Positions 36,488-57,094 of a stretch of DNA of 64,000 nucleotides are shown piece by piece. Where the stretch lies: positions 156,993-220,992 of the forward strand of contig CACPMT010000001.1 of the NCBI GenBank assembly GCA_902635045.1, written 5' to 3'. The notes beneath the pieces were generated by a model. The model did not search any database and was not told where the DNA came from. It saw only the letters and a program-made list of their open reading frames with translations. A program made the position numbers and the translations under genes. This stretch comes from an uncultured SAR86 cluster bacterium (GTDB taxonomy: Bacteria > Pseudomonadota > Gammaproteobacteria > Magnimaribacterales > AG-339-G14). Every line of letters begins with the position of its first letter. The stretch's first letter is position 1.

Positions 36488-37135
36488 ATGACAAAAAATA
36501 AAGGCATCACCTATACAGTCATTTCTTGTTTGGCCATCGTTTCAATGGTTATAGGACTTTTTGTTTATAGTACGGTCGCTGAGAAGGAACTAACCAACGA
36601 TCAATACAAGTTATTGAAGTTTTATAAACTGAATACTAAAAGAGATTTAAATGCCTTTTCGCTTTTTGAAAATGACAAACCTTTTACTGAGGCTAATTTT
36701 AAAGGAAAGTGGGACTTGGTATTTTTAGGTTTTGCTTCTTGTCCAGATATGTGTCCTATGACCATGCAAAAGATGGCAAAAACTGCCCAAATCCTTTCGC
36801 AGAAGGAGGGGCTTATAGAAAAAATAAACTTTGTGATGATTTCTATAGACCCTGACAGAGATAGCCCTGAGAGGGTAAATCAATATGCCAAGGCATTTAA
36901 TAAAGAATTTAAGGGAGTTTCAGGAAATATTAAGGATATTTATCAGCTTTCGTTAAATTTAACTTTGCCATTCACGCCAGTGATTGATTCAAAAAATGCA
37001 GACTATGATATGGATCATAGTATGAATTTGGCTTTGATTGATCCTTCCGGCAAATATCATGGTTTTTTTAAAACACCATATACTCCAGAGATGATGGCTG
37101 AAGCTTTAGAAAGCGTCATAAAATTTTCAAATTAG
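36488..37135 (+). CDS. sco1: SCO1/SenC family copper chaperone
   Basis: SCO proteins deliver copper to CuA of subunit II. The 215-residue protein has an N-terminal anchor (about 9-29), a thioredoxin fold with ASCPDMCPMTM (Cys85 and Cys89) and a downstream DMDHS that supplies the conserved His. It is the last gene of the oxidase cluster; no terminator was seen in the 97 bp that follow. Confidence 0.94.
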   Translation: MTKNKGITYTVISCLAIVSMVIGLFVYSTVAEKELTNDQYKLLKFYKLNTKRDLNAFSLFENDKPFTEANFKGKWDLVFLGFASCPDMCPMTMQKMAKTAQILSQKEGLIEKINFVMISIDPDRDSPERVNQYAKAFNKEFKGVSGNIKDIYQLSLNLTLPFTPVIDSKNADYDMDHSMNLALIDPSGKYHGFFKTPYTPEMMAEALESVIKFSN

Positions 37136-37232
37136 TCGAATCTCTGACGCATAAAAATATTTTTAACGCAATATATCTCTGATATAGTTTTATTGAGAAT
37201 TATTCTTAATTAAATACATAAAGGAGAGAAAT

Positions 37233-37643
37233 ATGGATTTAGCAAATACAGCTTTACAAGCCTTTCAGAATGGAAGAATTGTAGACGCGTTAACTTTTAT
37301 AGGAGTAATTATTGCTATTTGGTTGGCTTTAAGGGTAGCCAATATGACGGGAGAGAATCCTGATAGCAATCTAGTTACAAAAATAGTATCAAGTGCATTT
37401 GGTCTTACAGTAATGGCTGGAACATTTCAATCATTTGGCTTTGCTTCCAACACTTGGGTGACTTTTGCAAGAAGACTTACAGAAATAGGTCCTGAAAACA
37501 CTGGAGACCCAATTGGTGCTCAAGCTTTCATAGATTATGTTGGCACAACTGAAGCAACAGGAATGCCTACGCCTTTGGGAATAGCCTTTTGTGTGATTGT
37601 TACTATAATGATCCTGTCTTTAATTTGGGTACCAAGAAAATAA
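37233..37643 (+). CDS. small three-helix membrane protein, triplet copy 1
   Basis: The 136-residue protein is not recognised. Three hydrophobic segments lie at about 19-37, 48-70 and 112-132, with a short AQAFIDYVG motif before the last helix and a C-terminal IWVPRK. It is related in architecture to the next two genes and is the most divergent of them. A strong AAGGAGAG ribosome site precedes the ATG. A weak TTTTTA-17-TATAGT promoter may lie in the gap after sco1. Confidence 0.85.
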   Translation: MDLANTALQAFQNGRIVDALTFIGVIIAIWLALRVANMTGENPDSNLVTKIVSSAFGLTVMAGTFQSFGFASNTWVTFARRLTEIGPENTGDPIGAQAFIDYVGTTEATGMPTPLGIAFCVIVTIMILSLIWVPRK

Positions 37644-37652
37644 GGAGAGAAT

Positions 37653-38066
37653 ATGACTGAATTTCAAATAATTTCACAATTTAATTCTTTTTTAATAAGT
37701 AATGCCCTTTATTTAATGGTTTTTACTTTTTTACTTTTTATGGCTTATGGAGGCGTTTACAGAATGTATCAAGATGGAGCTACTATTGTTGGTAAAATTC
37801 TTGGAACTCTTTTTTCTGTAATAGTGGTTTATTTTAATTGCTTAACCTTAGGCTTTTTATATTCTCAACAGGCAGCAGCAGCTTATAATTTGTCTCAATT
37901 AGAAAATCTGTCTGAAGGAGGACAGGCTTTTGTTGACTTTTTCGGCGGTGGGTCTTTGGATGCATTTTCCTTGATACCAGCTGATCCAATGGCAGTTATA
38001 TTTTTTATAGTTGTTTTAATAAGTTTGATTCTTCCAATTTGGACTGCTCCAGCGCCAAAAGAATAA
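37653..38066 (+). CDS. small three-helix membrane protein, triplet copy 2
   Basis: The 137-residue protein is a paralogue of the next gene. It begins MTEFQI, has helices at about 16-36, 47-72 and 112-131, the shared LSQLENLSEGGQAFVDFFG stretch, a LIPADP turn and the ending IWTAPAPKE. It lies 9 bases after copy 1 with its own GGAG site and is followed by a strong terminator. Function unknown. No known cofactor motif is visible. Confidence 0.87.
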   Translation: MTEFQIISQFNSFLISNALYLMVFTFLLFMAYGGVYRMYQDGATIVGKILGTLFSVIVVYFNCLTLGFLYSQQAAAAYNLSQLENLSEGGQAFVDFFGGGSLDAFSLIPADPMAVIFFIVVLISLILPIWTAPAPKE

Positions 38067-38082
38067 AGCTTGCTAAAAAAAA

Positions 38083-38106
38083 GGAGGCTGACGCCTCCTT
38101 TTTTTA
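38083..38106 (+). terminator. rho-independent terminator after triplet copy 2
   Basis: A GGAGGC/GCCTCC stem (38083-38088 and 38093-38098) with a TGAC loop is preceded by an A run and followed by eight T residues. It should end transcripts of copies 1 and 2 or partly attenuate read-through into copy 3. Confidence 0.88.
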
Positions 38107-38129
38107 TAACGTAAAAATTAGGAGAACAA

Positions 38130-38543
38130 ATGGATGAATTTCAAATAAGTAATAACTTCGCAACGGGATTTATAGGGCGAGCAATATTCATGTTTGCCAT
38201 GTTGTTTTTGTTATGGATGATGTTTAGAGCTAATACTTTAGCTCATGAAAGAGGATCTAATTTATTTCAAAAAATACTTGGAACGGCTATTTCTGGATCT
38301 GTTTTGGTTTTTAATTTAACAGCTTGGAATACTTTTCCAGCATTCTTTAATAATTGGGCTTATAGCTTATCTCAATTAGACTCTTTGAGCGTAGGCGGAC
38401 AGAGGTTTGTAGACAATATGGGAGCGACTGGGTATCTCAGTACTGGATTAATACCATCTGATCCAGTGAGCGTAGTTTTTTGGCTTGGGATAACTATTGC
38501 TCTATTTTATGGAATATGGACTGCGCCAGAACCAAAAGAGTAA
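38130..38543 (+). CDS. small three-helix membrane protein, triplet copy 3
   Basis: The 137-residue protein is a clear paralogue of copy 2: MDEFQI start, helices at about 15-33, 48-70 and 112-131, LSQLDSLSVGGQRFVDNMG, LIPSDP, and an IWTAPEPKE end. It has an AGGAG ribosome site. The 3' region after the stop (TAAAGCTT, then A-rich, then a GGAGG hairpin) resembles that after copy 2, so the duplication appears to have included the terminator. Function unknown. Confidence 0.87.
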   Translation: MDEFQISNNFATGFIGRAIFMFAMLFLLWMMFRANTLAHERGSNLFQKILGTAISGSVLVFNLTAWNTFPAFFNNWAYSLSQLDSLSVGGQRFVDNMGATGYLSTGLIPSDPVSVVFWLGITIALFYGIWTAPEPKE

Positions 38544-38562
38544 AGCTTAGACAATAAAAAAA

Positions 38563-38585
38563 GGAGGTCAAATCCTCCTTTTTTT
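38563..38585. terminator. terminator between triplet copy 3 and the convergent reductase gene
   Basis: A GGAGG/CCTCC stem (38563-38567 and 38574-38578) with a six-base loop is flanked by A and T runs. It can serve both strands and overlaps the stop codon of the convergent gene at 38584. Confidence 0.85.
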
Positions 38586-39555
38586 AGATTTCAATAACTA
38601 CCTTTCCAGTAGCGGTTCTATCTTCAAGAGATTTTATCGCTTCAACCGCCTGGTCTAACGAATAGCTTTTAGTAATTTCAGGTTTTATCTTGCCTTCGGC
38701 ATGCAAGGCAAAAAGCTCTTCAAAGTTTTTATTATTTTCTTCCGGTTCTCTACCAGTAAAGCTTCCCCAAAAAACTCCTACAATTGAGCATCCTTTTAAA
38801 AGGGCAAGATTTGTTGGAACTTTTGGAATTCCAGCTGGGAATCCAATGACAAGCACTCTACCTTTCCAATTTACACATCTCATGCATTGCAAGAATATAT
38901 CACCACCTACAGGATCATAAATAACATCAGCTCCTAATCCATTAGTAAGTTCTTTTACTTTTTCTTTTAATTCGCCATCGCCATAATTTACAACTTCATC
39001 AGCTCCTAATCTTTTCGCAATGTCTAATTTTTCTTGGTTACTCGCTGCAGCGATAACCCTTGCGCCCATTGCTTTGCCAATTTCTATTGCGGTAGTTCCT
39101 ACACCCCCTCCGGCACCAGTCACCAAAAGTGTTTCACCTTCTTTAAGTTCTCCTCTTTGTTTCAAAGCATAGTATGTGGTTCCATAGTTGAGAGGAAAAG
39201 CAGCGCCATCTTTAAAATCCATTGTTTTTGGCAGCGCCATCAGGGTCGGTCCGAAAGCAGAAACCTTTTCGGCTATTCCACCGTTACCAATCATTGCAAT
39301 TACTCTATCCCCTTCTTTCCAGTCAGAAACTCCTTCACCTACTTCAGAGATTACTCCGGCAACTTCTCCACCAGGTGAAAAAGGAAAGGGCGGTTGAAAC
39401 TGATATTTTCCTTGTACAATCAGAACATCCGGGAAACTCACACCAGCAGCTTTGACATCAATGACTACCATCCCTGGCTCTGCTCTAGGATCTTCTATTT
39501 CTTCAATTTTGTGTGTGTCCACAGGACCAAATTCTCTACAAACATATGCCTTCAT
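38584..39555 (-). CDS. NADPH:quinone oxidoreductase-like MDR protein
   Basis: The 323-residue protein belongs to the zinc-free medium-chain dehydrogenase/reductase family (QOR/crotonase-reductase-like). It has PGGEVAGVISEVGEGV and the Rossmann motif VTGAGGGVGTTAIEIGKAMG at about 145-164, with the zinc-ligand cysteines absent. Such enzymes reduce quinones or alpha,beta-unsaturated carbonyls with NADPH; the true substrate is unknown. It is likely monocistronic or cotranscribed downstream of gshA, 14 bases away. Confidence 0.85.
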   Translation of the reverse strand: MKAYVCREFGPVDTHKIEEIEDPRAEPGMVVIDVKAAGVSFPDVLIVQGKYQFQPPFPFSPGGEVAGVISEVGEGVSDWKEGDRVIAMIGNGGIAEKVSAFGPTLMALPKTMDFKDGAAFPLNYGTTYYALKQRGELKEGETLLVTGAGGGVGTTAIEIGKAMGARVIAAASNQEKLDIAKRLGADEVVNYGDGELKEKVKELTNGLGADVIYDPVGGDIFLQCMRCVNWKGRVLVIGFPAGIPKVPTNLALLKGCSIVGVFWGSFTGREPEENNKNFEELFALHAEGKIKPEITKSYSLDQAVEAIKSLEDRTATGKVVIEI

Positions 39556-39569
39556 CGATTTCTCCTTAT

Positions 39570-45134: not shown

Positions 45135-45938
45135 ATGAAAAAAAATGTGAAAATAGTAACACTCGTTACTTTATTAGGAGTTTTTGTTGCTTGCAGCAGC
45201 GAGTCAACTCCGACATATTCTGAATTAGGATCAGATGAGTACCCCCAAAAGTTTTATGTGGAATATATCCCTTGTGAACTAGGACCTGACTATTCTCCAG
45301 AAGCATTTGCTCAAGATATGCTTCCTGGCTGGCAGAGTCTTTTGGTAGAGGTTGATTCAAAAATAGTTGCGGCTTATGGTCTTGGCTACGAAAGTAAACC
45401 TGAGGATGCTGAAGAAGATGGCTACTGGCAGCTTGTTTGGAATTCAAAAGAAGATGCTGAAGAAGGATGGACTACTTGGGCTGGGTATGAAAAAACAGCA
45501 GAGTGGAGTGAGGCAACAAGCAACATTTTAGTTTGTGGAAATAAAGAAGATACTTTTTCTTTTGATGCTTACATAAGAAGAGATGTCGATTCGTTGGGTG
45601 AATTTGATAGAACTAATTTTAATTCAAATTATATGGCCTGTTCTTACAATGAAGGACAAGGTGCAGACGAATTAATTTCATCAATTGATAGTTTTGATGC
45701 ATGGTTAGACTCAGATGAAAATATTGATGCTCCATATGGATTTATGGTTTTAGCGCCTGATTATGAAACAGAAGAATTTGATTTCATATGGGGGGATTTT
45801 CATCAGACAGTTGAGAATAGAGAAGAAGGAACTGCAAACTTTTTAGCAAAAGCTCCAAATATTCAAGCGGCTTTTGATGAAGTAGCTTCATGTCAAGAAG
45901 TAATTTCTTACAATACTGGACAAATTCCATCTAGCTAG
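45135..45938 (+). CDS. predicted lipoprotein with two similar halves
   Basis: The 267-residue protein has a lipoprotein signal peptide with FVAC as lipobox (Cys20) and a very acidic mature part. It appears to consist of two roughly equal halves, each beginning with a strand and ending with Trp-rich acidic sequence (YWQLVWNSKED and FDFIWGDFHQ). It is not assigned to a named family. It may belong with the bipartite exported proteins at 55673 and 56396, but direct similarity is not obvious by eye. It has an AAGGAGAG ribosome site and a strong terminator after it. Confidence 0.8.
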   Translation: MKKNVKIVTLVTLLGVFVACSSESTPTYSELGSDEYPQKFYVEYIPCELGPDYSPEAFAQDMLPGWQSLLVEVDSKIVAAYGLGYESKPEDAEEDGYWQLVWNSKEDAEEGWTTWAGYEKTAEWSEATSNILVCGNKEDTFSFDAYIRRDVDSLGEFDRTNFNSNYMACSYNEGQGADELISSIDSFDAWLDSDENIDAPYGFMVLAPDYETEEFDFIWGDFHQTVENREEGTANFLAKAPNIQAAFDEVASCQEVISYNTGQIPSS

Positions 45939-55609: not shown

Positions 55610-55672
55610 TTCACTTTTAGCTGTAATTGTCTCATATTAGTTACCCCTTAAATTTTTTCAATGGAGAGAAAA

Positions 55673-56380
55673 ATGAAAAAAATCTTAATTATTATTGCGA
55701 CAACGATGTCGCTATCTATTCATGCAGAAGGCGAAGGCAGACATGCCATGCACGCTTTTTATTTTATGAATGTTACTAACCCTATTGCAGTGGTTGGCGC
55801 TCTTGATGAGTTTGCTGCCTCTGAGTGTGGGAAAAAGATGCCAGCGGATATTGGTCTTATGGCCGAGCCAATTAATGGTTCCGATGCATCAACTCATTTT
55901 ATTATCGTTTCTTATGAAACTATGGAAGATTTCACCAAAGCTGGAGCTCTTATGCAAAGCTGTCCAGAAGCGGTAAAAATGTTACAAGGCATTGCCTCAG
56001 GAGCGGAAGCGGTATCTGAGTTTGCAATTATCCCAGCGATTGAAGTTGGTGATTGGACAAAAGACAATGTCTTTTTGAGATACGAAATTACTACAACTAA
56101 TGAAGCAGCTTATGCCAAAGCTTGGACCGAATTAATGGACTCTAACGTTGCTGACGGTTCTGTCACAGGATCTTATGGATTAAATAGAATATTCCTTGGC
56201 AATAATGAGGCTTCACATTTTGTCTACGTTGGTGCACAAGATTATGAAAGCTTGGTAGCGAATCAGGATGCATTAACAACTTCGCCAGCTTTTGCAAAAT
56301 TTTCAAAAAAAGTAGGCATGGTTAGAGATGTCATCAACACATCTTTAGTGTTTCCAGTAAAATCTTGGCCAAAGCAATAA
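55673..56380 (+). CDS. exported bipartite protein, paralogue 1
   Basis: The 235-residue form starting MKKILIIIATTMSLSIHA has a signal peptide; the ATG at 55673 has GGAG at 55663-55666, and an earlier ATG at 55661 would include that site. The mature part has two roughly 100-residue halves, each with an aromatic strand, SECG-like and ASTHFIIVSYE/ASHFVYVGAQD segments, suggesting duplicated ferredoxin-like domains. It shares this layout with the next gene. No named family is recognised. Confidence 0.8.
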   Translation: MKKILIIIATTMSLSIHAEGEGRHAMHAFYFMNVTNPIAVVGALDEFAASECGKKMPADIGLMAEPINGSDASTHFIIVSYETMEDFTKAGALMQSCPEAVKMLQGIASGAEAVSEFAIIPAIEVGDWTKDNVFLRYEITTTNEAAYAKAWTELMDSNVADGSVTGSYGLNRIFLGNNEASHFVYVGAQDYESLVANQDALTTSPAFAKFSKKVGMVRDVINTSLVFPVKSWPKQ

Positions 56381-56395
56381 CATAGAGGATATTTC

Positions 56396-57094
56396 ATGAA
56401 AAAAACTTTAATACTTCTTTTTGCCTTGAGTGGTTTCGCTCAAGCAGATGATCATGCAATGGATACGTACTATGCCTATTACGGCATTTCTACAACCAAT
56501 CCACCAGCGGTGGTTGCGGCAATGGATAAATTCAATGCTTCTGAATGTGGTCAAAAAACGCCGAGTACGGTGGCTTTGATGGCAGAAACTTTCAATGGTG
56601 GTGAGGCATCAACGCATACTTTTGTAGTGACTTATGAAGGTTCAAAAGTCTTAGATGAGACTTTAGCGATCTTGAGTACTTGCCCAGATTACGCAACATT
56701 TCTAACTGAAATGGCAGAAATCTCAGAGCCGACCGAACAAAATTTAGTTAAAAAACTTTATGAGCAAGGCGACTGGACTAAAGATACAGTTTTTGCTGTT
56801 TTCGAAATGAACATTAAAAATGAAGATGCCTATCTAACTGCTTATAAAAAAATGACTGACGCTATGGTCGAGCAAGGACAACTAACTAGTTCTTATGGAC
56901 TTGAAAGAGTTGTAGCCGGAACTGATTTTTCTCACTTTGCTTTTATTGGCGGCCAGAATGTGGCTTCACTCATGGAAACTTTAGATTTATTGGATATGAA
57001 AAATCCAGATTTCAAAGAATTTCAAACTGCGGTCAGAAGAAACCGTTCGATAGTCAGAAGAGGAATTGTCAATCCTGTTAAGGCTTGGGAATAA
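56396..57094 (+). CDS. exported bipartite protein, paralogue 2
   Basis: The 232-residue protein has a signal peptide ending near QADDHA and is clearly related to the preceding gene: VVAAMDKFNASECGQKTPS, GGEASTHTFVVTYEGS, QGDWTKDTVFAVFEM, TSSYGLERV and the closing NPVKAWE. The tandem pair is 16 bases apart with a shared terminator after this gene. Function unknown; a secreted or periplasmic small-molecule-binding role is only inference. Confidence 0.8.
   Translation: MKKTLILLFALSGFAQADDHAMDTYYAYYGISTTNPPAVVAAMDKFNASECGQKTPSTVALMAETFNGGEASTHTFVVTYEGSKVLDETLAILSTCPDYATFLTEMAEISEPTEQNLVKKLYEQGDWTKDTVFAVFEMNIKNEDAYLTAYKKMTDAMVEQGQLTSSYGLERVVAGTDFSHFAFIGGQNVASLMETLDLLDMKNPDFKEFQTAVRRNRSIVRRGIVNPVKAWE

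Follow-up and report, generated by a model that had tools for sequence, protein, structure and literature searches.

A SAR86 array of small three-helix membrane proteins at a conserved chromosomal slot, with members exchanged between species and genera

The window analysed here, a stretch of 64,000 nucleotides from an uncultured SAR86 cluster bacterium, carries three consecutive forward-strand genes for small proteins at 37233–37643 (copy 1, 136 aa), 37653–38066 (copy 2, 137 aa) and 38130–38543 (copy 3, 137 aa), exactly where an initial annotation made from the DNA letters had placed them. The genes are related, as that annotation proposed: copies 2 and 3 share 39% identity (E 2e-24 in a search of their own genome), copy 1 is more distant from copy 2 (29%, E 0.001), and a single profile of 54 members finds all three with E 1e-41 or better. 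The GGQxFVD-like motif and IW-x-x-P C-terminus that they were said to share are present, in diverged form in copy 1 (GAQAFID and IWVPRK). An AGGAG ribosome site lies upstream of every copy, that of copy 1 within AAAGGAGAG (37217–37232, forward strand). The annotation had taken these strong sites as a sign of high expression; the sites stand, and codon adaptation points weakly the same way (the three genes rank 2nd, 10th and 23rd among 63 window genes), but high expression is not demonstrated. Codon bias is small in this genome and ribosomal genes barely differ from background, hence codon use is uninformative on this point.

Two terminator-like hairpins were located on the forward strand, one 3' of copy 2 (stem 38076–38105, −18.3 kcal/mol) and the other 3' of copy 3 (38555–38586, −16.4 kcal/mol), both with z of about −5. 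The latter sits at the convergent junction with a PIG3-like NAD(P)H:quinone oxidoreductase gene (38584–39555, reverse strand), which forms the right border of the slot and is exchanged with the array. The conserved left border is the open reading frame of a sco1-like copper chaperone (36488–37135, forward strand). The hairpin pattern occurs at only two places in the window, after copies 2 and 3, against a chance expectation of 0.4. Copies 2 and 3 have only their 3' ends in common, and these common ends may favour recombination.

The three genes encode a previously unnamed family of three-helix membrane proteins, found in SAR86 only within the sampled class. No described family had been recognised initially, and database searches agreed: the best Pfam score for the three copies and 54 members was 17 bits, with curated cut-offs at 23 or higher, NCBIfam gave no match, the best PHROGs hit had E 0.98 and a PDB sequence search returned no accepted match. 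Furthermore, no description of the family was found in the SAR86 papers of the literature searched. Weak Pfam matches of a few members to Colicin_V (PF02674), DUF418, LPG_synthase_TM and T4SS_pilin all fell far below the curated cut-offs and were rejected; they vary from member to member, a common behaviour of generic hydrophobic helices.

The search for homologues in marine genomes that the initial annotation recommended found the family in each of the 40 genomes searched in the window's own family-level group and in 108 of the 151 genomes of the order. Credible matches in a class-wide sample (369 genomes) came from SAR86 genomes alone, those from other members of the class being taken as noise (partial, some with internal stops, E 0.002–0.01), and relatives fetched by sequence bear the titles of SAR86 cluster bacteria. 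In several genomes of the f2 and f4 groups, including the fairly complete G040, G055 and G051, no member was detected; the family therefore falls short of being universal in SAR86.

An AlphaFold model of copy 3 with 54 members (pLDDT 95) contains helices at residues 3–41, 45–81, 88–97 and 112–130. Foldseek with this model gave a best E of 1.0 and VIA-align a best Z of 8.1, inside the range of generic helical bundles, and structure searches of the PDB and of viral models returned nothing above the helical-bundle background. Only four positions are near-invariant (W29, R33, K48 and W130). Positive charges cluster round the first inter-helix turn and the C-terminus, and acidic residues at the N-terminus and in the long loop; because of this pattern the positive-inside rule predicts a topology with the N-terminus outside and the C-terminus inside. 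A conserved metal or cofactor ligand set, which the annotation had named as worth looking for, was not found among family members: apart from E3 near the start, their conserved positions include no H, C or D and no paired acidic residues to supply metal, cofactor or heme ligands. An enzyme role is therefore unlikely.

Throughout the window's own family-level group, the genes occupy one slot, between sco1 and the PIG3-like quinone oxidoreductase gene, followed by gshA and pckA. In every own-family array whose left flank is on the contig, sco1 is the neighbour, with extra genes between sco1 and the array in some g3 genomes. A tree of 103 members resolved old paralogue types, although with its 143 columns these assignments are of limited resolution. 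Each slot holds one to four copies from about ten such types, in nearly constant order, type A always coming first where it is present. The window carries types A, E and F as copies 1, 2 and 3, respectively. Scoring 37 own-family genomes by type gave 24 compositions, a count that includes arrays near contig ends which are perhaps incomplete (e.g. G017, G023 and G031), the genomes being assemblies from uncultured organisms. The eight species of group g1 have eight different sets. The genus-level group g2 shows an invariant A–B in all seven species, so exchange is not equally active everywhere.

This variability is best followed in two pairwise comparisons. Against a genome of the same genus (G022), proteins of the flanks are 94–97% identical and copy 1 is 98% identical, with copies 2 and 3 replaced. 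At the DNA level, identity is ~90% up to 37.65 kb, drops to ~50% up to 38.5 kb (replaced segment 37650–38555), is 74–76% through the oxidoreductase and returns to ~90% from 39.5 kb. Against a genome of another genus (G032) the flanking proteins are more diverged (Sco, CtaB and GshA 52–60% identical, Pck 74%) than copy 3 (89%) and the oxidoreductase (94%). Here DNA identity is 79–86% over 38.1–39.5 kb and about 60% either side, which delimits a 1.5-kb tract of copy 3 and the oxidoreductase (38082–39566) with 82% identity over a background of roughly 50–70%. These sharp steps at about 37.65, 38.1 and 39.5 kb, from which we infer recombination and which are neutral as to the direction of transfer, indicate that the oxidoreductase travels with the array. 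The oxidoreductase protein itself is 92–94% identical to those of the other genera g2 and g4 and 85–86% identical to those of the same-genus G022 and G018, hence it too has been exchanged across genera, and it may serve as a recombination handle. Within types, dN/dS was about 0.02–0.14 in the pairs examined; each type is under strong purifying selection, with the parts conserved as the set changes.

Could this diversity have arisen by tandem duplication, birth and death within lineages, with differential loss from an ancestral set and no horizontal exchange? The nearly fixed gene order across species would fit one long ancestral array. Loss alone is insufficient, however, to explain the identity steps, where copy 3 and the oxidoreductase match another genus amid neighbours at about 60%, or an oxidoreductase closer to other genera than to congeners, and we regard this explanation as improbable. 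The local tandem triplication read from the window, in which one duplication had included the terminator, is likewise not the best reading: copies 2 and 3 are different old types, copy 3 having its closest kin (85–89%) in another genus, and it was exchange and turnover within one fixed slot that brought all three together. We are confident that this is an array of small inner-membrane proteins restricted to SAR86, sitting at a conserved slot, with members exchanged between species and genera.

The position just after the oxidase cluster, correctly described for the window, holds across the window's own family-level group, where the array always follows coxBAC–surf1–ctaA–ctaB–sco1. Many oxidases are decorated by small helical proteins, and on these grounds the array, lying where the cluster ends, could supply the aa3-type cytochrome c oxidase with accessory small subunits or with factors for its assembly. 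The oxidase neighbourhood does not extend to other SAR86 families, where members occur mostly singly or in pairs, at other sites and beside unrelated genes. Moreover, in some genomes the array is separated from the cluster by terminators and by genes on the opposite strand, and the oxidase genes are conserved whereas the array content is not. With its linkage limited to one family-level group, an oxidase accessory role was demoted and now appears very unlikely.

Variable content between conserved flanks among close relatives, the hallmark of a replacement island, is what the array displays. It shares variable content at a fixed site, conserved flanks and genes mostly of unknown function with the hypervariable segments and replacement islands of marine bacteria described in the GOS survey (PMC1821060). 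Unlike those segments, it spans about 1–2 kb, consists of one protein family in nearly fixed internal order and is always occupied in the genomes searched. It differs further in that there is no tRNA in the window and no integrase among the ORFs listed round the slot, which are housekeeping genes.

If phages drive the diversity, the proteins being either inner-membrane targets for phage DNA entry or excluders of phages, swapped under frequency-dependent selection, whole types would likewise be expected to turn over at one slot between close relatives, as they do here. Superinfection exclusion is known to use small membrane proteins, which lends this reading some plausibility. Nevertheless, the types are strongly conserved and not diversifying, as their dN/dS values indicate, and the family is present throughout its lineage and not sporadically. 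One copy used as query found no homologue in 50,697 phage records, three single-protein queries found none in viral contigs, and PHROGs, as above, gave no match. We therefore consider phage-driven diversity unlikely.

Gene neighbourhoods in other SAR86 families offer a different lead. Outside the window's own family, the recurrent neighbours are secreted proteins of ~225–265 residues belonging to several sequence groups, and several pairs of a family member and a secreted protein are spaced by −4 to +5 nt and hence probably co-translated. Of the 92 genes adjacent to members, 21 encode secreted barrel proteins, as do 5 of the 556 distant genes, a contrast biased by the choice of partner families for their adjacency. 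In loci fetched after the partner families had been defined, the counts were 5 of 36 adjacent and 1 of 251 distant genes (Fisher p = 1.3e-4, with loci of related genomes not independent). The pairing was seen in at least four gene contexts and several orientations. Within the window's own family no partner protein adjoins the array. The window does carry a secreted lipoprotein gene (45135–45938, forward strand) 6.6 kb from the array, and relatives of this lipoprotein directly adjoin family members in other SAR86 families.

The lipoprotein represents the one partner group that was modelled, at low confidence (pLDDT 68). Its top fold match, on this model, would be a ferredoxin-like double barrel, the marine metagenome protein PDB 2pgc, followed by the coproheme decarboxylase/chlorite dismutase fold. 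This putative likeness belongs to the secreted or lipid-anchored partner and not to the membrane protein.

Taken together, these observations indicate that the conserved sco1–oxidoreductase slot is filled by one to four members of about ten old types in nearly fixed order, and that homologous recombination, probably via the conserved flanks and foremost the oxidoreductase gene, replaces members between species and genera. The proteins would insert with the N-terminus outside and the C-terminus inside, the bundle packing anchored by W29, R33, K48 and W130 at the cytoplasmic face, and would present the acidic loop and short helix to the periplasm. A heterotrimer of the three copies had been envisaged initially; an obligate form is unlikely in view of single-copy arrays, as in G028, which has one copy between intact flanks, and copy number ranges from one to four. 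As one copy can be enough, the types are probably alternative or mixed subunits of an oligomer.

As to function, our leading but tentative proposal is a membrane module for docking or passage that handles small hydrophobic compounds together with periplasmic ferredoxin-like-barrel proteins, the types differing in preference or operating range; this role is carried over from distant relatives, the partners not being adjacent in the window's own family. Such a role would fit, suggestively, with the SAR86 metabolism centred on lipids and steroids that is described in PMC11582366. A broader and still more speculative picture is that of a new class of modular membrane device in SAR86, whose interchangeable three-helix subunits share one chromosomal socket and are swapped between species and genera, which in other lineages is linked to periplasmic barrels delivering or sensing hydrophobic compounds, and through which each species is tuned to its particular part of the ocean.

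SAR86 reportedly accounts for as much as 6% of the microbial community in the surface ocean, and the description of its first isolate dates only from 2024 (PMC11582366). A strongly constrained family that is limited to this order and present in all searched genomes of one family-level group likely matters for the SAR86 way of life. As the array is small and lies between recognisable genes, existing metagenomes can be used to determine its composition and to compare it with temperature, depth or season, which would put niche tuning by gene swapping to a concrete test. The repeated neighbour, in turn, gives a handle on an otherwise undescribed membrane protein.

Several further members and neighbours were observed. 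Two adjacent genes in the window (55661–56380 and 56396–57094, forward strand) encode secreted proteins of one partner group as a tandem pair; the first was searched and had no Pfam match. An own-family-type copy in a genome of another SAR86 family (G108, L084:8867–9346) lies among unrelated neighbours, and is either a transfer or a binning error. Proteins of ~90 aa near f4-group members (L074:12887–13159, and in L149 next to 9404) look like shortened, loop-less versions of the family. Close to family members there were also a related oxidoreductase in the f2 group (41–45% identical to that of the window and within one gene of a member), a DUF1295 enzyme and an alpha/beta hydrolase. The genome of the window itself holds a fourth, distant member of 149 aa (L033:10530–10979; contig C2 133547–133951, reverse strand), whose counterpart in several related genomes has a 4-base overlap with an alpha/beta hydrolase gene.
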